Below are positions 13,675-30,742 of a DNA stretch of 40,644 nucleotides, piece by piece (the stretch's first letter is position 1; each line of letters opens with the position of its first letter). The stretch comes from Burkholderiales bacterium. Lineage in GTDB: Bacteria; Pseudomonadota; Gammaproteobacteria; Burkholderiales; Burkholderiaceae_E. The DNA lies in NCBI GenBank assembly GCA_003576795.1, contig QEVN01000004.1, forward strand, positions 1-40,644, in the 5' to 3' direction. Both the position numbers and the translations under genes were made by a program. The notes under the pieces are model-generated. The model saw only the letters and a list, made by a program, of their open reading frames with translations, ran no database searches and had not been told where the DNA came from.

Positions 13675-13853
13675 CACGAACGCATCACCATTGATCCCGC
13701 GGTCATGCCGGGCGAGCCATCCTGCGCAAGCTCGCCGAGGGAGTCGCCGAGGCTGACCTGCTCGATGCGTATCCGAACCTCTGCGTGGGAGACATCCGCG
13801 CGGCGAGGGACGTTTGGCCTGTCAGGCTCTTCTTCGACGTGCAGGCTCGTTGA
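13675..13853 (+). pseudogene. Remnant of a DUF433-family antitoxin
   Basis: Two pieces of a DUF433 (VapB-like) protein are visible in different frames. The first (13675 on) reads HERITIDPAVMPGEPS, matching the family's N-terminal RITIDPxVMxGKP. The second (13719-13850, another frame) reads ILRKLAEGVAEADLLDAYPNL then GDIRAARD, matching the family's C-terminal half. The central CIRGTRxPV segment is missing and the frame is broken, so no full protein can be made. No start codon is evident. The 3' part overlaps the tail of the vapC gene on the opposite strand. Confidence 0.7.
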
Positions 13854-14298
13854 CCCGGTGCCGCCCCGGCGATTCGTCGCCGCCCGCCGCTTCCCACGGA
13901 TCGATCACGTCAACGCCGTAGAAGTCGAAGTCGCGCACATTACGTGTGACAACCCGAAGCTCATGGAACGAAGCCGTCGCCGCGAGCAGGCTGTCGATCG
14001 CCGGCGCCGGCCGCCCAAGCGCGGCCAGCAGCCGACCCCATCGATCGGCGACGCGACGATCGACGTCCAGGACACGACCTGCGAAGAATGCCGGCAGCTC
14101 ACCTTCGAGCCAATCGAGAAGCCTCGTCCGCAGCCGGCGTTCCGTCACGCGCTCGATTCCCTTGCGGATCTCGCCGAGGGTGAGCACGCTCACGAACAGC
14201 ATGCGCGCCGGTCGCTCCTCGAACCAACGAACGACGTTCCGATCCGGCGATTTGCGCCGCAGCTCGGACAGCACGTTCGTATCGACGAGATAGCTCAC
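13822..14298 (-). CDS. vapC: PIN-domain ribonuclease toxin (VapC family)
   Basis: VapC toxins are Mg-dependent RNases that usually cut tRNA or rRNA. The PIN acidic set is complete: D6 (YLVDTNVLSEL), E43 (TLGEIRKGIE), D102 (AIDSLLAATA) and N120/D123 (TRNVRDFDF). It starts with GTG overlapping the antitoxin end by four bases. The product is 158 residues; the PIN fold ends near VIDPWEA (about 136), and the last 20 or so residues are an Arg-rich tail encoded across the antisense of the DUF433 remnant, probably a replaced 3' end. The pair is intact. Confidence 0.92.
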   Translation of the reverse strand: MSYLVDTNVLSELRRKSPDRNVVRWFEERPARMLFVSVLTLGEIRKGIERVTERRLRTRLLDWLEGELPAFFAGRVLDVDRRVADRWGRLLAALGRPAPAIDSLLAATASFHELRVVTRNVRDFDFYGVDVIDPWEAAGGDESPGRHRVNEPARRRRA

Positions 14299-14549
14299 AG
14301 CGACGTACTCCGCACGGGCGACCTGTCGCGCGGAAAGTCGATCTCTTCGATTTCTCGCAACGGCGAGCGCTGCATGAAGTCGACGAGCGAGCGGCCGCCG
14401 ACGAGCCGGTCGAACTCCTCGCGCGACAGCAGGATCGCGACAGGGCGTCCATGAACGGTGATTTCCTGCGGTCCGTCGCTGGCGGCCTGTTTGACTAGTT
14501 CCGAGAAGCGCGCTTTTGCCTCCTGCAGTTGCCAGGATTGCATCGACAT
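14295..14549 (-). CDS. Phd/YefM-family antitoxin
   Basis: The product has about 84 residues. The N-terminal DNA-binding fold reads WQLQEAKARFSELVKQA, then ITVHGRPVAILLSREEFDRL, both typical of Phd/YefM. The C-terminal part should wrap the PIN toxin. Three in-frame ATGs are possible (14555, 14549, 14543). The first lies 2 bases from a palindromic operator, so 14549 or 14543 is more likely. It is translationally coupled to vapC. Confidence 0.9.
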   Translation of the reverse strand: MSMQSWQLQEAKARFSELVKQAASDGPQEITVHGRPVAILLSREEFDRLVGGRSLVDFMQRSPLREIEEIDFPRDRSPVRSTSL

Positions 14550-14557
14550 CACCATTG

Positions 14558-18170: not shown

Positions 18171-19598
18171 TCAGAGTGTCAGGCGCAGGATCTCGCTCGC
18201 GATCGTGGAAAAGCAGCGGTCGAGATCGGTCGCCGTCGCTGCGTGGCAGTACAACCCCTGCGGCTGCGCGTCGTTGCGGGAATCGGAATCGGCCGAGTTC
18301 GCCAGGCGCTTCAGGATCGTCGAGCCCTTTTCGTTCGCCAGCGTGTAGCCGCAGTTGCCGCCCGAGAACGACGTTTCGAGCGTGTTCAGTGGATCTCCGA
18401 GCCCGATGGTGTAGATGCGGATATCGTCTCCGCGCGCAGTGTTCGCCACTCGCTCAACCATGTTCCGGGCGGCCTTGTTCACGTTGCAGCGCGTGTTCTG
18501 GTAAGGCGATCCGGTCAGCGTTCGCTTTCCGTCGAAACTCGCCAGCGGAATTCCGCCGGCGCCGGTGGACGGCAGGCTCGAAATGTTGGTGATCGTCGAT
18601 CCGGACCCGTCGGCATCGCCGGCGTAGTAGGCATCGTTGCGGGCGTTGTCGCGCCACATCCGGTCCGCTGCGCCGCTGCCGGATCCGCTGATGTCCGAAT
18701 ACAGGTTCCCGGTGATCGGATTCGGGCTTCCGCTGCTGCGCGGGAAGGTGCCGCTGACGAGGTTCGGCGCTCCATCGCTGAAGAAGAGAATGACGCGCAG
18801 GCTCGATCGCAGTGCGACCGGCACCGTATTCAGCTCATCGAGCCCCCTGCGCATGCCTTCGGCCGATGCCGTGGCCCCTCCGAGCGGCAGCGCGTTGATC
18901 GCGGCCTGGATCACGCCGCTGTCGAATCCTCGCGTCGCGTCGCGGTTGATCGGCACATCGAGCACTGCGCCCGACGAGAACGACACCAGGCCGACCCGAT
19001 CGCCGCCGGCTCCCGAGCTGAACTTCTTGATGAAGCCGTTGATCGCGGCGCTTTTCAGCGTGGGAAACGTCGATGCCGGACTGTAGGGCGGACCGAGTGA
19101 GCCGGAGGTGTCCATCACCAGCACCACGTCCAGATCGCGACGGATCGCCTCGCCGGCTGCCGCCACGCCGACGTCGGTGCGGCCGAGTACGCGGATGAAG
19201 CTCGTCGGCATGTTCGCGGTGGCCGATACCGAGACGCGCCATCGCCCGCTCGCCTCGCGCACCGCCGACGTGGTCGGCGCCGAGGGGGTCGAGCCGAGGA
19301 AATCGGCCGGGTAGTTCAGCTGGAAGAACCGCGCAGCAGCCGCCTGCGCGTTCGAGATCCGGGCGGCGTCGTCGGCGCCGACGGCCAGCGCGCGTGCGGC
19401 CGCGATCGAAGCCGCATCGACCGCCGCGTTCAGCCGCGCCCGTACGCCGTAGGCGCGGCCCGAATCGACTGCAAGTCCGACCGCGCCGATGAGGACGATC
19501 AGCGACAGCCCGAAGAGGATGAGGATCTGTCCGCGCTGGTGGATCGAGGACCGGAAACGGTAGCAGCCGGGCCGCAGGATACCGGGTCGTGAAGCCAT
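18171..19598 (-). CDS. tadG: TadG-like pilus assembly protein with von Willebrand A domain
   Basis: The 475-residue protein opens with a Tad-type N-terminal segment (QRGQILILFGLSLIVLIGAVG, residues 21-41) followed by AVDSGRAYGVRARLNAAVDAA, the standard TadG start. A vWA domain follows with the MIDAS motif DTSGS at 163-167 and the later DGAP. The role is probably that of a minor pilus component or surface adhesin of the Tad system. A Gly/Ser/Asn-rich stretch (about 285-330) lies inside the vWA domain. It is downstream of two tadE genes in one operon. Confidence 0.9.
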   Translation of the reverse strand: MASRPGILRPGCYRFRSSIHQRGQILILFGLSLIVLIGAVGLAVDSGRAYGVRARLNAAVDAASIAAARALAVGADDAARISNAQAAAARFFQLNYPADFLGSTPSAPTTSAVREASGRWRVSVSATANMPTSFIRVLGRTDVGVAAAGEAIRRDLDVVLVMDTSGSLGPPYSPASTFPTLKSAAINGFIKKFSSGAGGDRVGLVSFSSGAVLDVPINRDATRGFDSGVIQAAINALPLGGATASAEGMRRGLDELNTVPVALRSSLRVILFFSDGAPNLVSGTFPRSSGSPNPITGNLYSDISGSGSGAADRMWRDNARNDAYYAGDADGSGSTITNISSLPSTGAGGIPLASFDGKRTLTGSPYQNTRCNVNKAARNMVERVANTARGDDIRIYTIGLGDPLNTLETSFSGGNCGYTLANEKGSTILKRLANSADSDSRNDAQPQGLYCHAATATDLDRCFSTIASEILRLTL

Positions 19599-19599
19599 C

Positions 19600-20157
19600 T
19601 CAGAGGATCGTCAGCGAGTACAGCCGTGGATCGGTGCTGATCACGTAGCGCGTCAGCAGCGTGTAGTCGTAGAAACTCTCCACCGCATACACCGTTTCGC
19701 CGTCGAGCAGCGGTACGGTGAGCGAAATGATGGGGCGCGTCGCCGGCATCGTGCAGCTTCCGTCGGCGCGCCATGCGCCAGAGCAGCTCCACAACGTGCT
19801 CCCGAGTGCCCGCTTGCCGCCGACCGTTGGTCGGTACTGCTCCTCGACGCGCGCGCGTCCGTCGGGCTCGCCCACGAGTTTCGTGATGTACATCATGCCG
19901 TCGGTGTTCATCGTGAGCGGCGTCGCCGTGCTCATCAGCGTGCGCAGGATGTAGTCGGGCGGTTCGGTGGTGCGCGCGGCGAGATTGGCGCCTTCACGAG
20001 TCAGATGCACGAGAACGTTGTTGAACTGGATGGCGCGCGAGAGATCGATGACGCCGAGAACGAGCAGCAGCAGGATCGGCAACACGAGCGCGAACTCGAT
20101 CGTCGCGAGTCCGCTCGCGCGGACGCGCCGGCGTGCACGAGCAGGCGCGTTCGTCAC
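19600..20157 (-). CDS. tadE: TadE-family pseudopilin, second copy
   Basis: The 185-residue protein has the prepilin-type motif SGLATIEFALVLPILLLLVLG (about 15-35), where cleavage after the glycine by the prepilin peptidase is expected, and the Glu at +5. The following LTREGANLAARTT matches TadE/TadF proteins. It starts with GTG overlapping the previous gene by four bases. It is probably a minor pilin that sets pilus assembly. Confidence 0.9.
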   Translation of the reverse strand: MTNAPARARRRVRASGLATIEFALVLPILLLLVLGVIDLSRAIQFNNVLVHLTREGANLAARTTEPPDYILRTLMSTATPLTMNTDGMMYITKLVGEPDGRARVEEQYRPTVGGKRALGSTLWSCSGAWRADGSCTMPATRPIISLTVPLLDGETVYAVESFYDYTLLTRYVISTDPRLYSLTIL

Positions 20158-20657
20158 GGGAAAGCCTCGTTCTTCATCGTGGCGCTCACCGAGAATCGGT
20201 ATTCACCCGCAGTCGCGCTGAAGAAGGGTCGAACGAAGGGCGTGAGGGCGGCGACCTTGCTGTCGACCTGCACGATGATCAGCTGGTTCGCGCCATAGCA
20301 TGAACCGCTTCCCAGCGTGACGATGTTGCCGGCTGAGTCGATCGTCTTGAAGGTGGTGGTGGACAGGGAGCGGTCGTACATGCCCATCGACTGCTCACGG
20401 ATCTGCTGGCGCGCGGCGGCGCAGCGGTCGCCCGGGACGGGAGACAGATCGCTTCGTCCGGTGACGGCGTAGCGGGCGCCTTCGCGCACCGCATGCTGCA
20501 TGGAGAGATTCGCGAAGAAAAGATACGACCAGTCGATGATCGAAAAAAGCAGGGTGAAGAACAACAGGGCGACTAGGCCGAATTCCACGGCCGCAACGCC
20601 GTTCTGTCGCGTGCGCATGCCGGGAGGCCGGCGTGTTCCTTTCGACGGAGCGTTCAT
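20154..20657 (-). CDS. tadE: TadE-family pseudopilin, first copy
   Basis: The 167-residue product has the motif NGVAAVEFGLVALLFFTLLF, again with Glu at +5 after the cleavage glycine, then MQHAVREGARYAVTG. The frame is open further upstream, but the ATG at 20657 (MNAPSKG) or the later one before RTRQNG gives a normal short leader. It heads the minus-strand Tad operon, divergent from flp1. Confidence 0.88.
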   Translation of the reverse strand: MNAPSKGTRRPPGMRTRQNGVAAVEFGLVALLFFTLLFSIIDWSYLFFANLSMQHAVREGARYAVTGRSDLSPVPGDRCAAARQQIREQSMGMYDRSLSTTTFKTIDSAGNIVTLGSGSCYGANQLIIVQVDSKVAALTPFVRPFFSATAGEYRFSVSATMKNEAFP

Positions 20658-20954
20658 TCCGAGCGCAGTGTGTCCTTTTTCCGACGAACGGCGGCGGGGT
20701 TTTCTCTCATATGCCATTTTGACCCGAAAAAACCACCCTGAGTGTGGAAAAATCCTTCTCCCGCGGCGCGTTTCGTGAATTTCTTCCTGCAACGAGCAGG
20801 GTTCGCTGCCAGAGTCGCGTCAACGCCGGGCCGACGAACGGTCCTGCGGATCGGGATCCCGAGCAATCGCTGTCCGCCGGGAGAGAGGGTGGCCGTCCTT
20901 TCCGACGGCTGTTTTGTCTGCCGCCCTGGGTGCGGCTTCGTGGGGAGTTTCAAC
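20658..20954. other. Divergent control region of the Tad island
   Basis: This 297-base gap separates the two Tad operons and must carry both promoters. A TTGACC at 20719-20724 is -35-like, but I find no convincing -10 at the right distance. I see no clear sigma-54 site and no gene. Confidence 0.4.
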
Positions 20955-21134
20955 ATGGTGCGTTTCATCGAGGCGACGAGGCGTTTTGCCCAAGACGAAG
21001 AGGGCGTGACGGCGATCGAATACGGGCTCATCGCGGCGTTGATCGCGGTCGCGATCATTGTCGGCGCTCAGGCCGTCGGCACGAACCTGAACGGCTTGTT
21101 CAATTACATCGCGGGCAAGGTTGCGGCTCCCTGA
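20955..21134 (+). CDS. flp: Flp-type major pilin, copy 1
   Basis: The 59-residue prepilin carries the Flp motif DEEGVTAIEYGLIAALIAVA. Cleavage is expected between G17 and V18, leaving Glu at +5 and Tyr at +6 of the mature pilin, as in all Flp pilins. The mature part is about 42 residues, hydrophobic, without cysteine. GGGGAG lies 7 bases before the ATG at 20955. Confidence 0.95.
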   Translation: MVRFIEATRRFAQDEEGVTAIEYGLIAALIAVAIIVGAQAVGTNLNGLFNYIAGKVAAP

Positions 21135-21214
21135 TAGCCGATCTCAGCGGGCCGGCGTGGAAGCGATTTTTCAAGTCGCCCCTTGTCCGGTCTGCCCCCT
21201 GGGAGGCGCGGAAT

Positions 21215-21415
21215 ATGGGCAGGAACGCGATGAAGATCGTGTCGCGAATGCTCGTCGATGAAACCGGCGTCACGGCGATCGAATACGCACTTATTGCCGC
21301 GCTGATCGCCGTAGCAATCCTGAGCGGTGTTTCCACGCTCGGAATCGAGATCCAGGCGATGTATCAGGGAGTTTGTACGGCGGTGGTCGGAGCGATCAGC
21401 GGAGGCTCGTGTTGA
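21215..21415 (+). CDS. Flp-type pilin, copy 2, with two cysteines
   Basis: The 66-residue prepilin has the same signal (DETGVTAIEYALIAALIAVA; cleavage expected after G18). The mature part differs from copy 1 in its C-terminus, which contains C54 and a terminal C66 (QGVCTAVVGAISGGSC). GGGAGG lies 8 bases before the ATG. The downstream peptidase gene overlaps its stop. It may be a minor or alternative subunit. Confidence 0.92.
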   Translation: MGRNAMKIVSRMLVDETGVTAIEYALIAALIAVAILSGVSTLGIEIQAMYQGVCTAVVGAISGGSC

Positions 21416-22020
21416 CCGGATTCGCCTCGCCGGGCGGCCTCGAGTCGCTGACGCTCTGGCTCGTACGGGTGGTATTCGTCTCGGTTCTCGTTTTCATTTG
21501 CAAAAGCGATCTCCGTGAGCGGCGGATTCCGAACCGACTTGTCGGCGTCGGGCTCGCAGTTGCCTTGATGTGGCATGCATTCGCTTCCGCAGGTGCGGGA
21601 CTGTTCGACGCCGTCGATCCCGGGGCACTGGGTGTCGCCGCTTCCGCGATGGGAGCGCTTGCAGCGTTCGGGCTCTTCATCGTGCTGCATCTGTTCAGGG
21701 TAATGGGCGCCGGCGACGTCAAGTTGATGACGATGCTCGGCGCGTTTTTCGGCGTCGCGCTGCTGCCCCCGCTCGTCGCGGCCGTCTTCGCGGCCGGAGG
21801 CCTGCTCGTGCTGGTTCGCCTTCTCGATGGTGAACGTCGCCGGGCGGTCGCCGCCAATTTGCGCGTGCTCGCATTCGGCGGGCTCGCAGCACTCGCCGGG
21901 CATGCCGGCCCCCGCTTCGATGCAAAGCGCGACACGGCCGATCGTCTGCCCTTCGCGTTCGCCATTGCGGGGGGCGCATTCGCAGTGGCCGCACTGCAAT
22001 GGTACGGAGCGCTGGCGTGA
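21409..22020 (+). CDS. tadV: Type IV prepilin peptidase TadV/CpaA (A24 family)
   Basis: The product has 203 residues and about six membrane helices. It has both catalytic aspartates of the A24 family: D34 in CKSDLRERRIPN and D103 in MGAGDVKLM. It cleaves the Flp and TadE leaders. The start is GTG at 21409 or TTG at 21412, both behind GGAGG and overlapping the flp2 stop. It is longer at the C-terminus than many CpaA proteins. Confidence 0.93.
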   Translation: MLTGFASPGGLESLTLWLVRVVFVSVLVFICKSDLRERRIPNRLVGVGLAVALMWHAFASAGAGLFDAVDPGALGVAASAMGALAAFGLFIVLHLFRVMGAGDVKLMTMLGAFFGVALLPPLVAAVFAAGGLLVLVRLLDGERRRAVAANLRVLAFGGLAALAGHAGPRFDAKRDTADRLPFAFAIAGGAFAVAALQWYGALA

Positions 22021-22054
22021 GCGGGAACCGGACGCCGGCTCGAGGAGGCCGTGC

Positions 22055-23383
22055 ATGGTGAGCGAAGTGCTTCTCGCGCGCGCGGAGCCGGTGCGCATCC
22101 CGGTCGAGCCGATCCGGCCGCCGCAGTCGCTCGAGGCCACGGGCCTGTCCGACGCCGTCGTCTTCGATCTCGTGCTGAAGCACCTGCGTCGCCACGGCGA
22201 TTGCTCGACCGCCGAACTGGCAATGCTGATCGCGCTGCCCGTGCCGGTGCTCGACCGGCTCCTCGGTTTCCTGCGCACCGAGCGGCTCGTGGAAATTCCC
22301 GGGCGCGGAAATTTCGACGCCGATGTACGTTTCTCGCTCACCGATCTCGGCCGGGCGCGCGCCGAGGATGCGTTCCAGCGGAACCGGTACATCGGAGCGG
22401 CGCCGGTTTCGTTGGCCGATTACGTTGCCCAGGTGGGTCGCCAACGCATTTCCGGTGCACGCATTGCGCCGGACCGATTGGCGCAAGTGCTTCAGCCGCT
22501 CGTTCTGCCGCCGGAACTCATCGCCACGCTCGGCGCAGCGGTCAACTCTCAGCGGCCGATGTTCCTGTACGGCCCGAGCGGCGCAGGAAAGACCTGGCTC
22601 GCCGAGCACCTGGTCGACGTGATCGAAGGCGCGATCTGGGTGCCGCACGCGATCGAGGTCGACGGGGAGATCATCCAGGTGTTCGACCCGATCGTGCACC
22701 GTCCGATCGGCGCGTCGCACGCGGGCGGCTCCTTCGACCGCTCACGCCAGCCCGATGGACGATGGGTGCTCTGCGAGCGCCCGGTTGTCAAGCTCGGCGG
22801 CGAGATGACGCTTTCGATGATGGACCTCGAGCTCGATCCGGTCACGCGCTTCTACAAGGCTCCCGCACAGCTGAAGGCCAACAACGGAGCGCTCGTCTTC
22901 GACGACCTGGGGCGCCAACGCAGCTCGGCAAGCCAGATCCTGAACCGCTGGATCGTTCCGCTCGATCGTCGCGTCGATTATCTGTCGTTGCATACGGGTA
23001 CGAGCTTCGAGGTTCCGTTCGACGCGCTCGTGTTCTTCTCGTCGAACCTGTCGCCGGCGAGCCTGGACGATCCCGCTTTCGTGCGACGGCTCGGTTACAA
23101 GATCCGGCTCGATGCGCTCGACGAGGCCGCGTATCGCTGCGTCTTTCGCCAGGCGTGCGAGCGCGCCGACGTCGAGCACGACGAGAGCGCCGCCGATTTC
23201 CTGATCGACGAGCTGCATCGCCGTTCGGGCATGCCGCTGCTCGCCGCCTATCCGCTCGATCTCGTGCTGAAGATCCGCGACCGCGCGGTGTACGAGGGGA
23301 GCGTCGCACGCCTGACGCCCGAGGCGCTGAGCTGGGCATGGGCACTGTATTTCGCAGCGGAATCCGGCGCGGACGACGACTGA
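22055..23383 (+). CDS. Winged-helix plus AAA-type ATPase in the Tad operon
   Basis: The product has 442 residues. The N-terminal part (about 30-110) has a helix-turn-helix layout typical of winged-helix domains (HGDCSTAELAMLIALPVPVLDRLLGFLR, then an RYIG end). An ATPase follows: Walker A LYGPSGAGKTW (171-181), Walker B ALVFDDLGRQ (279-288) and a sensor-like FFSSNLSP (327-334). It is not one of the standard Tad proteins (TadA is separate downstream). It sits between the peptidase and cpaB in an unbroken operon, with GAGGAGG 6 bases before the ATG. The function is unknown; a regulator or remodelling ATPase of the pilus are possible. Confidence 0.75.
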   Translation: MVSEVLLARAEPVRIPVEPIRPPQSLEATGLSDAVVFDLVLKHLRRHGDCSTAELAMLIALPVPVLDRLLGFLRTERLVEIPGRGNFDADVRFSLTDLGRARAEDAFQRNRYIGAAPVSLADYVAQVGRQRISGARIAPDRLAQVLQPLVLPPELIATLGAAVNSQRPMFLYGPSGAGKTWLAEHLVDVIEGAIWVPHAIEVDGEIIQVFDPIVHRPIGASHAGGSFDRSRQPDGRWVLCERPVVKLGGEMTLSMMDLELDPVTRFYKAPAQLKANNGALVFDDLGRQRSSASQILNRWIVPLDRRVDYLSLHTGTSFEVPFDALVFFSSNLSPASLDDPAFVRRLGYKIRLDALDEAAYRCVFRQACERADVEHDESAADFLIDELHRRSGMPLLAAYPLDLVLKIRDRAVYEGSVARLTPEALSWAWALYFAAESGADDD

Positions 23384-23436: not shown

Positions 23437-24303
23437 ATGAAGGGCACACGGGCGGTGATCATGCTGCTGCTGTCGCTGATCGCAGGGGTCGCGGCGATGG
23501 TTCTGGCGGCACGCTGGCTGAACGAGCAGGGCGCATCTGCCGCCGCTGCGCAGGTCGCGGTGGCCACGCGCGACATCGAACTGGGTCAACCGCTGAACGC
23601 GTCGATGGTCGAACTCGTGCCGTGGCCGCCCGGTTCCGTGCCGGTCGGTTCCTTCGCGAAGATCGAGGCGCTCGACGGACGCGTATTGCGAACGCAGATC
23701 CTGAAGGGGGAGCCGGTGCTCGAGGCCAAGCTCGCACCGGTCGGTACCAAGGGGGGGCTTTCGGCGGTGATCGGCCAGGGCCGGCGCGCAATCACCGTGA
23801 AGGTCAACGAGGTGGTCGGCGTCGCGGGCTTCGCGCTGCCGGGCAACTACGTCGACGTGCTCGTGAACACGCAGGACGAACGCGACCGGCCAGTGTCCAA
23901 GATCGTGCTCGAGCGCATTCTCGTGCTCGCCGTGGCGCAGGAAGCGAGCCGCGACGACACGAAGCCCCGAGTGGTCAACGCGGTCACGCTCGAAGTCATG
24001 CCCGAGGAGGCCGAACGCATCGATCTCGCGCGCAGCGTCGGAACGCTTTCGCTGGTGCTGCGCAACCAGGTCGACCAGAACCAGGCCCGCACCGACGGCG
24101 TGCGCAAGTCCGACCTGCTCGGCGAGGCGTCGTTCACGCCACCGGCGGCGCCCGCACAGGTCGCGGCGGCGCCCGCAGTCGCACCCGCGGCGGCGCCCCG
24201 CCGCACGACGCGCGGCTCGCCGCGTCCGGCAGCAGCAGCGCCCGCTCAGAACGTTCGCGTCGAGGTCATCCGCGGCGTGCAGCGCTCGAGCACCGATCTG
24301 TAG
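23437..24303 (+). CDS. cpaB: Flp pilus assembly protein CpaB/RcpC
   Basis: The product has 288 residues, one N-terminal helix (about 7-25), then a SAF-like domain (ATRDIELGQPLNASMVELVPWP, about 43-64) and the RcpC core (TVKVNEVVGVAGFALPGNYVDV). A long Ala/Pro tail (about 225-270) is characteristic. CpaB lies in the periplasm and helps position or gate the secretin. AGGGGAAGG precedes the ATG. Confidence 0.94.
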   Translation: MKGTRAVIMLLLSLIAGVAAMVLAARWLNEQGASAAAAQVAVATRDIELGQPLNASMVELVPWPPGSVPVGSFAKIEALDGRVLRTQILKGEPVLEAKLAPVGTKGGLSAVIGQGRRAITVKVNEVVGVAGFALPGNYVDVLVNTQDERDRPVSKIVLERILVLAVAQEASRDDTKPRVVNAVTLEVMPEEAERIDLARSVGTLSLVLRNQVDQNQARTDGVRKSDLLGEASFTPPAAPAQVAAAPAVAPAAAPRRTTRGSPRPAAAAPAQNVRVEVIRGVQRSSTDL

Positions 24304-24317
24304 CGAGGGAAGAAAGA

Positions 24318-25907
24318 ATGAAGAAAAAAAGCTTCGCCGTGGCGACGGTCGCGCTGCTTGCCTCGGCAGCCTTCGCGCAGACGAGCGCGCCGCGCGCGCC
24401 CACGGTGATCAAGGGCACGACGCCCGCGAAACCCGTATTCACGCCGCAGATGCCCGCGCTGCCGGACGGCAACATGCCTACCGAGATCGGTCCGGCGATG
24501 GAGCTGGTGGTCGGCAAGTCGACGCTCGTGCGCCTGCCCGCCCCGATCGAGCGGATTTCGGTCGGCAATCCGGCAGTGGCCGACGTCACGCTGATCAGCG
24601 CTCGCGAGCTGTACCTACTCGGCAAGACTTTCGGCTCCACCAACGTGATCATGTGGCAGCGCAACGGCCCGACGACGATCATAGACGTCTCGGTGAGCGC
24701 CGACTCGGGTGCGCTCGAGCGGCGGATCGCGATGCTGATGCCGGGCGAGAACGTGAAGGTGCACGCAGCTTCCGATTCGCTCGTCCTCACGGGTCTCGTA
24801 TCGAGCGCCGTGAAGGCGGCGCAGGCGGTCGAGATCGCCGAGTCCTTCGTGCGCACCTATTCGCGCGGACTGCAGCTCGAGGTCGTCGCGGGCAACCAGA
24901 CGGCTCAGCAGGGTCAGGCGATTACCGTCGGACAGGCCGCAGTAACGGGCGGTGGCATGGGCGGCGGGCGATCACAGCAGCAGCAGCCGAAGGTCGTGAA
25001 CATGCTGCGTGTGGCACAGCCGCAGCAGGTGATGCTGGAGGTCAAAGTCGCCGAAGTCTCGAAGAATCTGCTCGACAAGCTCGGGGTCGGCATCGACGCC
25101 ACGCGCGCGAGCGGGAGCTGGCGCTATTCGATCATCAGCGACCTGCTGTCGGATTCATCCAGTCTGCTCGGGGCCACGAGAAACAACACGTCGATCGTCG
25201 CAGACGCCGAGCGACGCGACGGCCTGATCAAGGTGCTCGCGGAACCGAACATCGTTGCGATCAGCGGCCAGGAAGCGAGCTTCCTGGCCGGCGGCAAGAT
25301 CTTCATTCCCGTGGCGCGCGAGAACAGCGGGTTCGGCGGCGTGACGATCACGCTCGAGGAAAAGGAGTTCGGCGTCGGCCTGAAGTTCACGCCGGTCGTG
25401 CTCGACGGCGGACGCATTCACCTGAAGGTCGCGCCCGAGGTCTCCGAGCTGTCGCAGACCGGCTCGCCGTTCACGACGATCAACGGCGTCACGGCGGTTC
25501 TGCCCAGCTTTACTACCCGGCGAGCGCAGACCTCGGTGCAACTGATGGACGGGCAGAGCCTCGCGATCGCGGGCCTGATCAAGAACAACGTCACCGAGAC
25601 GGTTCGCCGCCTCCCCGTGCTCGGCGAGATCCCGGTGCTCGGCACGCTCTTCCGCAGCAGCGAGTTCCAGAGCGATCGCACCGAGCTGATGTTCCTGATC
25701 ACGCCGCGCCTGGTGAAGCCGCTGAGCACCGAGGTGGCGCTGCCCACCGACGCGTTCGTGCCGCCTTCGCGCGGAGAGTTCTTCGTCAACGGACAGCTCG
25801 AAGGCAGCGGCAGCGGCGACGTGCCGGCCGACCGGCCGTCAGCCGCGCCCGCTCCGGGCGCTACGCCCGCGGCTGCGCCGGCGGGCGGTGGCTTTCAGAT
25901 CAAATGA
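24318..25907 (+). CDS. cpaC: Tad secretin CpaC/RcpA
   Basis: The 529-residue outer-membrane channel protein has a signal peptide (cleavage near AFA-Q, residue 20), an N-terminal pilus domain (VRLPAPIERISVGNPAVADV), a BON-like segment (MPGENVKVHAASDSLVLTG) and a secretin domain with VLAEPNIVAISGQEASFLAGG. A Pro/Ala tail ends the protein. It forms the exit pore for the Flp pilus, working with CpaB and the following lipoprotein. Confidence 0.96.
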   Translation: MKKKSFAVATVALLASAAFAQTSAPRAPTVIKGTTPAKPVFTPQMPALPDGNMPTEIGPAMELVVGKSTLVRLPAPIERISVGNPAVADVTLISARELYLLGKTFGSTNVIMWQRNGPTTIIDVSVSADSGALERRIAMLMPGENVKVHAASDSLVLTGLVSSAVKAAQAVEIAESFVRTYSRGLQLEVVAGNQTAQQGQAITVGQAAVTGGGMGGGRSQQQQPKVVNMLRVAQPQQVMLEVKVAEVSKNLLDKLGVGIDATRASGSWRYSIISDLLSDSSSLLGATRNNTSIVADAERRDGLIKVLAEPNIVAISGQEASFLAGGKIFIPVARENSGFGGVTITLEEKEFGVGLKFTPVVLDGGRIHLKVAPEVSELSQTGSPFTTINGVTAVLPSFTTRRAQTSVQLMDGQSLAIAGLIKNNVTETVRRLPVLGEIPVLGTLFRSSEFQSDRTELMFLITPRLVKPLSTEVALPTDAFVPPSRGEFFVNGQLEGSGSGDVPADRPSAAPAPGATPAAAPAGGGFQIK

Positions 25908-26257: not shown

Positions 26258-27424
26258 ATGAGCCTCAAGCTAACGTTGTTCGCGTCGAGCCCCGAGGCGC
26301 TCGCCGAACTGTCCCTGAAATTGCCCCACGCCGACGACTCCACGGCCGTGTCGTCGGCGCTTGGTTCCGTGTCCGCGCTCGCGCTGGAAATCGAACGCGG
26401 CCGTCCGGACCTCGTCGTCGCGCAGACGGCCCCATTGGGCGATTCCGAGTTGCGCCAGGTCGAGAGCGCGCTGATCGCCTCGCCGGCGACCTCGATGATC
26501 CTGCTTTCGCCGGAGCGTTCGCCCGAATACCTGATTCGCGTGATGCGCGCGGGCGTACGCGAAGTTGTTCCCACGCCTCTCACCAACGGTGAGCTCACGG
26601 CTGCCTACGGGCGGCAGATCGAGCGCGTGCTGGCCCAGCGCGGCGGCGGCCGGGTCGGACGCGTGCTCGCATTCCTCCCCGCCAAGGGCGGAAGCGGCTC
26701 CACTTTCCTGTCGACGAATCTCGCGTACGCGCTGGCAGCCCGCGGACAGCGCGTCGCGCTGGTCGACCTGAACCTGCACTTCGGCGATGCGGCGCTGTTC
26801 CTCAGCGAAGCGAAGCCGGCACAGACGATCGCCGACCTCGCTCGCGAGGCCTCGAGGCTCGATCCGACCTTCGTCGAATCGAGCATGATGCCGGTCGCGC
26901 CGAATCTCACGGTGCTTGCCTCGCCCGATACGCCAGAAGGCGCGATGGACGTGACGCCCGAGGCGGTCGAGCGGATCGTGTCGATCCTGCGCGGGCGCTT
27001 CGACTTCGTCCTGCTCGACATGGGGCGGATCATCGACGCTGCTGGCGTGCGCGCCCTCGACCAGGCCGAGGCGGTGTACATCACGCTGCAGTTGACGCTG
27101 CCGTTCATTCACGACGCGAAACGACTGCTCACGCTGCTCGAGAAGCTCGGCTATGCGCGCGACAAGCTGCACGTGGTCGTGAATCGATGGGAGAAGGGCG
27201 GAGAGATCACGTCGGCCGACGTCCATCGCTCGCTCGGCGTGACGGTCGATCTCGAAATCCCGAACAGCTTCGCCGCGGTTGCGCATGCGATCAACCACGG
27301 CATCCCGATCCTGAAGAGCGCGCCGAAAGACGCCGTCTCGAAGGCGCTGCGCAAGCTCGCTGATCGGCTCGCGCCGGCGGGTGCAGAGGAGCGGCGCGGC
27401 TGGTTCGGTCTTTCGATCCGGTAG
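26258..27424 (+). CDS. tadZ: Pilus localisation ATPase-like TadZ/CpaE
   Basis: The product has 388 residues with an atypical receiver-like N-terminus (about 1-115) and a MinD/ParA-type domain with a deviant Walker [15 protein letters not shown] (about 140-153), then [14 protein letters not shown]. TadZ proteins place the Tad machine, often at a pole. The Asp expected in real receiver domains is not obvious at the right place, as usual for TadZ. Confidence 0.92.
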
Positions 27425-27432
27425 GGAAAACG

Positions 27433-28782
<1,350 letters not shown>

Positions 28783-28809: not shown

Positions 28810-29784
28810 ATGGACTGGGCCTTCGCGATATTCCTGCTGGTCTGCTTCCTGGCGGTGGTGCTGCTGCTCGAGGGGGGCTTCCTGCTGTGGAACGACACCC
28901 GCGGCGCGGAAGTGCGGCAGCTCGAGCGCCGGCTGCGCGCCCTGCAGGCAGGCGGCCGCGGCACGCAGGCGGCGTCGCTGGTCAAGGCGCGCGAGGCCGA
29001 CACCGTCGGCCTGCTCGGCAAGCTGCTGCTGCGGCTGCCGCGTGTCTCGATGCTGGAGCGCTCGCTGCAGCAGGCCGGAGTGACGATGCCGACGTCGCGT
29101 TTCCTGATGACGACCGGCCTGCTGACGATCGCGGTCGTTCTCGTGGCGCTTGCGCTGCGCCAGCCGCTGTGGCTTGCGCTCGTGCTCGGCGTGGGCTCCG
29201 CCCTGCTTCCGTTCGCCGGGCTGTCTATCGCGCGAACGAAACGCCTGAACCGCTTCCAGGCGCAATTGCCCGACGCGGTCGAACTCATCGCGCGAGCGTT
29301 GCGTGCCGGGCACGCATTCCCGCCCGCGCTGCAGATGGTGTCCGAGGAACTGCCCGACCCGATCGGCGGCGAATTCGCCACCGCCTTCGAGGAGGTCAAC
29401 TACGGCATCCCGGTCTCCGACGCGATGCAGAACCTGGCCACGCGCGTGCCGGTGGATGATCTGCGCTTCTTTGCCGTCGCCGTGATCCTGCAGCGCGAGA
29501 CAGGCGGCAACCTGGCCGAGATTCTCGACAACATCAGCAGGCTGATCCGCGAGCGTTTCAAGCTGCTCGGCACGATCCGCGTGCTGAGCGCCGAGGGCAA
29601 GCTCTCCGCCTGGATCCTCACGCTGCTGCCTTTCGCCACCGCGTTGATGATCAATCTCGTCAGTCCCGGGTTCATGGACGTCCTCTGGAAGGACCCGATC
29701 GGTTACCGGCTGATCTTCGTCGCGCTGTTCTCGATGGCGGTCGGCGTGTTCTGGATGTGGCGGATCATCAAGATCAGGGTCTAG
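28810..29784 (+). CDS. tadB: Tad inner-membrane platform protein TadB
   Basis: The 324-residue protein has an N-terminal helix, a central pair of helices, a T2SSF domain (QLPDAVELIARALRAGHAF, then REGGNLAEI-like LQRETGGNLAEILDN), and a last helix near VGVFWMWRIIKI. Together with TadC it forms the membrane platform on which TadA acts. Confidence 0.95.
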   Translation: MDWAFAIFLLVCFLAVVLLLEGGFLLWNDTRGAEVRQLERRLRALQAGGRGTQAASLVKAREADTVGLLGKLLLRLPRVSMLERSLQQAGVTMPTSRFLMTTGLLTIAVVLVALALRQPLWLALVLGVGSALLPFAGLSIARTKRLNRFQAQLPDAVELIARALRAGHAFPPALQMVSEELPDPIGGEFATAFEEVNYGIPVSDAMQNLATRVPVDDLRFFAVAVILQRETGGNLAEILDNISRLIRERFKLLGTIRVLSAEGKLSAWILTLLPFATALMINLVSPGFMDVLWKDPIGYRLIFVALFSMAVGVFWMWRIIKIRV

Positions 29785-29803: not shown

Positions 29804-30742
29804 ATGACACAGGAACTCTATCTGGCGCTCGCAGCGCTGTTCGTCGCCGTGGTTGGCGGCGTGTACAGCGTCGGCGCGCTGCTGTCTCGCGGTATGGGCG
29901 TCCGTGCGCGGCTGCGCGGCGTCGTCGGCAGCGCCGGCCCGGAAGGGGGTGAGACGCCCGAATGGCAGGCTCGCGTGCTGAAGGCGGCAGGCCCGGTCGC
30001 GCGGCTTGCCACGCCGGGCACCGACGAGGAGATCTCGAAGGTACGTGCGAAGTTCCTCCATGCGGGCTTTCGTGACGCCTCCGCGCCGGTGGTGTATTTC
30101 GCGCTCAAGGCGTTGCTCGCGATCGCGTTGCCGGTCGTCCTGTTTCTGCTCACCGACGTGCGCGCGCGGGACGGCAATCAGCCGATGCTGATCCTCTTTG
30201 CGGCAGCGGCGCTCGGCTACTACCTGCCCAACCTCGTGCTGTCACGGCTCACGTTCGTACGTCAGCGCGAGCTCTTCGAGGCTTTCCCCGACGCGCTCGA
30301 TCTGATCATCGTCTGCGTCGAGTCGGGTATCTCGCTCGATGCAGCGATCGCGCGCGCCGCGTCGGAGATCGAGCTGCGAAGCCCGAAACTTGCCGAGGAG
30401 CTGACGCTGGTCGGGCTCGAGCTGCGCGTGGGCGCTTCGCGGGAGCGCGCCTTGCGTAACCTGGCCGCCCGCACGGGACTGGACGAGGTGTCCAGCTTCG
30501 TCGCGATGATGCTGCAGGCCGATCGCTTCGGCACCAGCGTCGCCGATTCCCTGCGCGTGCACGCCGATTCGCTGCGTGTGCGGCGTCGTCAGCGCGCCGA
30601 GGAGCAGGCGGCGAAGATCCCGTTGAAGATGCTCTTCCCGCTGATCTTCTGCATCTTCCCGTCGCTGCTGCTCGTGCTGATGGGCCCGGCTCTGGTGCAG
30701 ATCTACCGGATCCTGTTGCCGACGATATCGGGCGCGGGGTAG
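29804..30742 (+). CDS. tadC: Tad inner-membrane platform protein TadC
   Basis: The 312-residue protein is the second T2SSF-domain platform subunit: FPDALDLIIVCVESGISLDAA and FGTSVADSLRVHADSLRVRRR are the familiar TadC motifs. It has helices at the N-terminus, centre and C-terminus (LLLVLMGPALVQIYRIL). It starts 19 bases after the tadB stop. Confidence 0.95.
   Translation: MTQELYLALAALFVAVVGGVYSVGALLSRGMGVRARLRGVVGSAGPEGGETPEWQARVLKAAGPVARLATPGTDEEISKVRAKFLHAGFRDASAPVVYFALKALLAIALPVVLFLLTDVRARDGNQPMLILFAAAALGYYLPNLVLSRLTFVRQRELFEAFPDALDLIIVCVESGISLDAAIARAASEIELRSPKLAEELTLVGLELRVGASRERALRNLAARTGLDEVSSFVAMMLQADRFGTSVADSLRVHADSLRVRRRQRAEEQAAKIPLKMLFPLIFCIFPSLLLVLMGPALVQIYRILLPTISGAG

Follow-up and report, generated by a model that had tools for sequence, protein, structure and literature searches.

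A gene within the Tad pilus operon of a Burkholderiales bacterium (hereafter gene X) encodes a winged-helix ATPase that, judged from its sequence and predicted fold, is a member of the AAA+ superfamily with intact core motifs. With a probability of roughly 55%, we consider it to be an accessory AAA+ ATPase of one broad subtype of Tad (type IVc) system, which would remodel or activate a Tad component as a ring. Across many phyla gene X travels with one broad Tad type, whereas the type known from work on Caulobacter lacks it; it is therefore probably an overlooked part of the Tad machine. The features of the locus, numbered from the first nucleotide of the window (the whole 40,644-nucleotide stretch of DNA that was analysed), are as follows.

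20943..21415, + strand: two Flp pilin genes, 20943–21134 and 21236–21415 (PF04964)
21373..22020, + strand: CpaA/TadV prepilin peptidase, ORF taken from the first start codon (PF01478, E 1.5e-16)
22042..22048, + strand: ribosome-binding site of gene X, GAGGAGG, spacer 6 nt (read directly from the sequence)
22055..23383, + strand: gene X, winged-helix AAA+ ATPase, 442 aa (ORF with ATG start, homologues, predicted structure)
22151..22384, + strand: MarR-like winged helix, residues about 33–110 (AlphaFold2 models; MarR/AspA matches by structure and profile)
22505..23362, + strand: AAA+ domain and lid, residues about 151–436 (AlphaFold2; folds of Lon, sigma-54 activators and NorQ)
22571..22594, + strand: Walker A, GPSGAGKT, residues 173–180 (G173, G176, G178 and K179 invariant in 56/56 homologues)
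22895..22918, + strand: Walker B and signature, VFDDLGRQ, residues 281–288 (D283, D284, G286, R287 and Q288 invariant)
23437..24303, + strand: CpaB/RcpC (PF16976, E 5.5e-31; SAF)
24318..25907, + strand: CpaC/RcpA secretin (computed start; homology to annotated secretins at the same position in Burkholderiales loci)
26258..27424, + strand: CpaE/TadZ, MinD/ParA-like, separate from gene X (NCBIfam MinD/CpaE models)
27433..28782, + strand: CpaF/TadA motor ATPase, separate from gene X (TIGR03819, E 6e-105; PDB CpaF structures, E 2e-138)
28810..29784, + strand: TadB platform protein (gene order, homology to annotated loci)
29804..30742, + strand: TadC platform protein (gene order, homology to annotated loci)

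Gene X is separated by 34 bp from the prepilin peptidase gene and by 53 bp from cpaB. The 442-residue ORF, its strong ribosome-binding site and its place between these two genes had been put forward in the original prediction and were all borne out, the neighbours being identified by the PF01478 match on one side and by PF16976 and SAF on the other. The Tad operon is complete in the window, with a small lipoprotein-like ORF between cpaC and cpaE/tadZ. Genes for TadE, a TadE-like protein and TadG are divergent (18171–20792, − strand), and TadG contains a DTSGS stretch resembling that of von Willebrand factor A (vWA) domains. The Walker A motif of CpaE/TadZ is deviant (KGGSGST), with Ser where Lys is usual. 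Overlapping small ORFs at 13822–14555 (− strand) resemble a Phd/YefM-type antitoxin and a PIN-domain toxin when their translations are inspected by eye. A simple scan detected no promoter-like sites, and terminator-like sites were rarer than in shuffled sequence. Comparison of gene X with six copies from the same genus gave dN values of 0.17–0.20 and dS values of 0.67–1.02, indicating purifying selection; given this, and since the genome collection contains at least 592 relatives, gene X is not a chance ORF. Two ATPases of the same operon were considered as possible identities and ruled out: for TadA/CpaF only a VirB11 P-loop match was obtained (E 0.16), and for TadZ/CpaE the MinD/ParA match was absent. 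These proteins are of the VirB11/PilT and MinD types, respectively, whereas gene X is of the AAA+ type, and both are encoded separately downstream, so that the description of gene X as a non-canonical member of the operon, neither TadA nor TadZ, was upheld.

The AlphaFold2 model of the gene X protein, built on an alignment of 56 diverse homologues from which five plasmid-record rows were excluded, had a mean pLDDT of 91.3 and consisted of an N-terminal winged helix followed by a full AAA+ domain with lid. Walker A and B are intact, as had been predicted: the catalytic Lys of Walker A (K179) and the acidic pair of Walker B (D283–D284) are present in 56/56 homologues, the second residue of the pair being Asp where Glu is usual. 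Sensor-1 N331 and the Arg-finger candidates R344/R345, whose roles are assigned from the alignment and the predicted fold, are also found in all 56, and within this alignment the DDxGRQ and NRW signatures are identical across phyla. A sensor-2 Arg in the lid is common in AAA+ proteins, though not universal. Position 401 is Arg in 45/56 homologues and Leu in the window protein, which indicates that, as far as the alignment tells, the sensor-2 arginine is lost in the window's own lineage, the AAA+ fold and core motifs being kept. Structural matches of the model were AAA+ proteins (8p49, Lon, NtrC1/FleQ and NorQ) at Z 13.9–17.4. The closest, at Z 17.4 (254 residues, 2.9 Å), was PDB 8p49, the uncharacterised AAA+ protein Q8U0N8 from Pyrococcus furiosus, for which no paper was found in the open-access literature; at 15% identity, the likeness seen to gene X is that of the AAA+ fold. 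The fold is also shared with Lon (Z 15). No family in Pfam, NCBIfam or PADLOC exceeded the cut-off, P-loop stretches alone being matched below threshold, and only generic AAA or AAA+ proteins were returned when the PDB was searched by sequence and viral proteins were searched with Foldseek.

The N-terminal winged helix, also part of the original prediction, was modelled with high confidence, its best match being a MarR-type wHTH (Z 12.6 over 78 residues, 1.7 Å). By fold it resembles MarR regulators and the centromere-binding protein AspA (Z 11–12.6), and at the profile level it is weakly similar to both (E 2e-5). These resemblances speak for gene X regulating transcription of the tad operon in an ATP-dependent manner, in which case the MarR-like winged helix would bind DNA and the AAA+ ring would set the oligomeric state; the AAA+ fold is common to AAA+ regulators such as FleQ/NtrC, and orphan copies of gene X, which lie away from tad genes, could work in trans. 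However, across the homologue alignment the winged helix averages a net charge of −1.6 and its recognition helix one of −0.9, and acidic residues occupy recognition-helix positions 67 (40/56 homologues), 68 (29/56) and 76 (43/56). Some winged helices are known as protein binders rather than DNA binders, and the acidic charge favours protein binding by that of gene X, short of proof; since the recognition helix is acidic, a role as protein adaptor is more probable than one as DNA-binding regulator. Sigma-54 activators (NtrC1, FleQ and FlrC) share the AAA+ fold with gene X (Z 14–14.6), but their HTH is C-terminal and of the Fis type, whereas in gene X the winged helix is N-terminal and the window protein lacks the GAFTGA loop for sigma-54 contact. 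A fixed position within a structural operon is also less typical of a regulator, and we regard regulation of the operon as unlikely. The idea of a DNA-binding ATPase, which had been offered together with that of a subunit-binding one, is thus weakened by the charge of the winged helix, and subunit binding or remodelling appears to be the better one.

The MoxR family (NorQ, CbbQ) also shares the AAA+ fold, and its chaperone-type members are encoded beside the machine they serve. By analogy, gene X could be a MoxR-type chaperone of the TadG vWA domain, as NorQ is for NorD: the model matches NorQ/CbbQ (Z 13.9 for NorQ), the TadG of the window has the DxSxS vWA-like stretch, and the bpMoxR profile matched 22/56 homologues, the window protein not among them, at E ≤0.01, with a best value (2.4e-5) that is still below threshold. 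Unlike MoxR proteins, however, gene X has no above-threshold Pfam match to that family, carries an N-terminal winged helix and has DD in Walker B where MoxR usually has DE; no NorD-like partner of gene X was identified. TadG is an exported protein whose vWA domain should lie outside the cytosol, while the alphaproteobacterial gene X adjoins tadC, not tadG. In the excerpted text of a 2026 in situ study of Caulobacter (PMC13170226), CpaL also has a vWA domain, yet the CpaF of Caulobacter falls in a clade without gene X, as described below. A chaperone function of this kind therefore seems improbable.

Of 398 evenly drawn Pseudomonadota genomes, 52 carried gene X at E <1e-100, far removed from the P-loop noise at 1e-7. 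When the neighbourhood was inspected in 51 of these, window included, 44 homologues were located in Tad loci; 21 had the order cpaA-X-cpaB, 22 lay some kb downstream of tadC, one lay directly after tadC and seven were orphans. The cpaA-X-cpaB order is beta/gammaproteobacterial. Gene X comes after tadC in Rhizobium and in one large alphaproteobacterial-type family, which disproves the supposition that homologues always neighbour cpaA/cpaB. Annotated Paraburkholderia, Burkholderia and Rhizobium plasmids have both arrangements, and on them the product is labelled merely "ATP-binding protein" or "AAA family ATPase". Gene X mostly lies away from tad genes in Myxococcota, Acidobacteriota, Chloroflexota, Planctomycetota, Nitrospirota and Melainabacteria. 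The linkage to Tad loci thus stood in Pseudomonadota and failed in most homologues of other phyla, though CpaB is encoded elsewhere in 34/39 orphan-X genomes, many of which are MAGs and may be incomplete. Neighbours of the orphans vary (e.g. genes for an ilvE-like aminotransferase and a Fic-like protein, named from sequence by eye), and their clustering revealed clade-specific neighbours only, with no partner common across phyla. Several unusual copies were observed: in one Pseudomonadota genus, tandem duplicates that lie outside its Tad locus (L143 and L145); a gene X in two overlapping halves in different frames, through a frameshift or sequencing error (L014 and L018, genome G005); a relative of the same family at 30% identity without the DDxGRQ and NRW signatures, likely a degenerate copy (L015, genome G035); and second Myxococcota copies of about 600 aa in total with a long proline-rich N-terminal extension (L180 and L181).

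CpaB was found in 50/52 X-positive and 116/346 X-negative Pseudomonadota genomes (Fisher p 4e-19), and in 44/44 X-positive and 22/53 X-negative Myxococcota genomes (Fisher p 4e-11), the latter counts including a few weak matches; both p values are overstated, because the genomes share ancestry and the test ignores it. Comparative genomics thus supports the link of gene X to Tad well. A general function in the cell that has nothing to do with pili, with tad merely a frequent neighbour, would suit the mostly orphan copies with varied neighbours in Myxococcota, Acidobacteriota, Chloroflexota, Planctomycetota and relatives, but it is highly improbable, as the orphan-X genomes nearly always carry Tad elsewhere and their CpaF groups with X-linked CpaF in the tree.

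That tree covered CpaF motors of four origins: loci linked to gene X, Tad loci in genomes without it, second Tad loci in genomes that carry it, and genomes in which gene X is an orphan. The 105 motors of systems with gene X (73 X-linked, 32 orphan-X) all fell outside two CpaF clades lacking gene X, and these clades contained 27/30 motors from X-less genomes, along with 4/4 of the second loci in X-bearing genomes. The exceptions, L206, L217 and L230, are X-type motors from X-less genomes. An IQ-TREE rerun with 74 rows recovered both X-less clades with support of 99 and placed the CpaF of Caulobacter, taken from the PDB alignment, inside one of them. The existence of two long, well-supported CpaF clades without gene X is firm. 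X-type CpaF may form a single clade: it occupied one side of a FastTree branch with support of 84, although the quick IQ-TREE analysis did not clearly show this split. Placement in the CpaF tree indicates that gene X follows the Tad subtype, even when it is unlinked or when a genome has two Tad types. The genome of the window (G000) also carries a second CpaF homologue of 50% identity (contig 177, 12127–13311; L268), the tree placement of which is not firm, and a second CpaB match, yet gene X is present as a single copy.

As an accessory ATPase of the Tad machine, the gene X protein would form an ATP-driven hexameric ring, as MoxR/NorQ, sigma-54 activators and Lon do, and its N-terminal winged helix would serve as a protein adaptor, not as a DNA reader. 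By the same analogy, it may remodel or activate a cytosolic or inner-membrane Tad component while the machine assembles, the likeliest partners being the motor CpaF and the prepilin peptidase CpaA. Partial correlations of protein distances were calculated over 39 complete cpaA-X-cpaB loci using the neighbouring genes. The values for gene X were weak, the highest being with CpaA (0.49, jackknife s.e. 0.10), followed by CpaF (0.41, s.e. 0.14), and the value with CpaB was negative; the CpaA and CpaF correlations give a weak hint at the partners.

The genes around gene X correspond to published Tad components, and a AAA+ protein of its kind is absent from the excerpted texts of both sources compared (PMC6668835 and PMC13170226). 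In the excerpts of Denise et al. (PMC6668835), the Tad model extends the key components already known by tadD, rcpB and rcpC, and a separate AAA+ protein like gene X is not mentioned. As excerpted, the in situ Caulobacter study (PMC13170226) places CpaF and CpaE as the only cytosolic ATPases and describes the Tad pilus as run by one bifunctional motor, CpaF, with help from CpaE. Within the open-access literature, no name was found for the gene X family or for a AAA+ component of Tad. The family is widespread and nameless. Tentatively, and at somewhat less than even odds, gene X may be an ancestral part of Tad that serves it as a second, dedicated cytosolic component of motor type, kept in many phyla including the myxobacteria and lost in the clades containing Caulobacter, in which case Tad models would be incomplete for a large share of organisms. 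If many Tad systems need a dedicated AAA+ ATPase, models based on Caulobacter would not transfer to them, and annotation tools would be missing a marker that distinguishes Tad subtypes.
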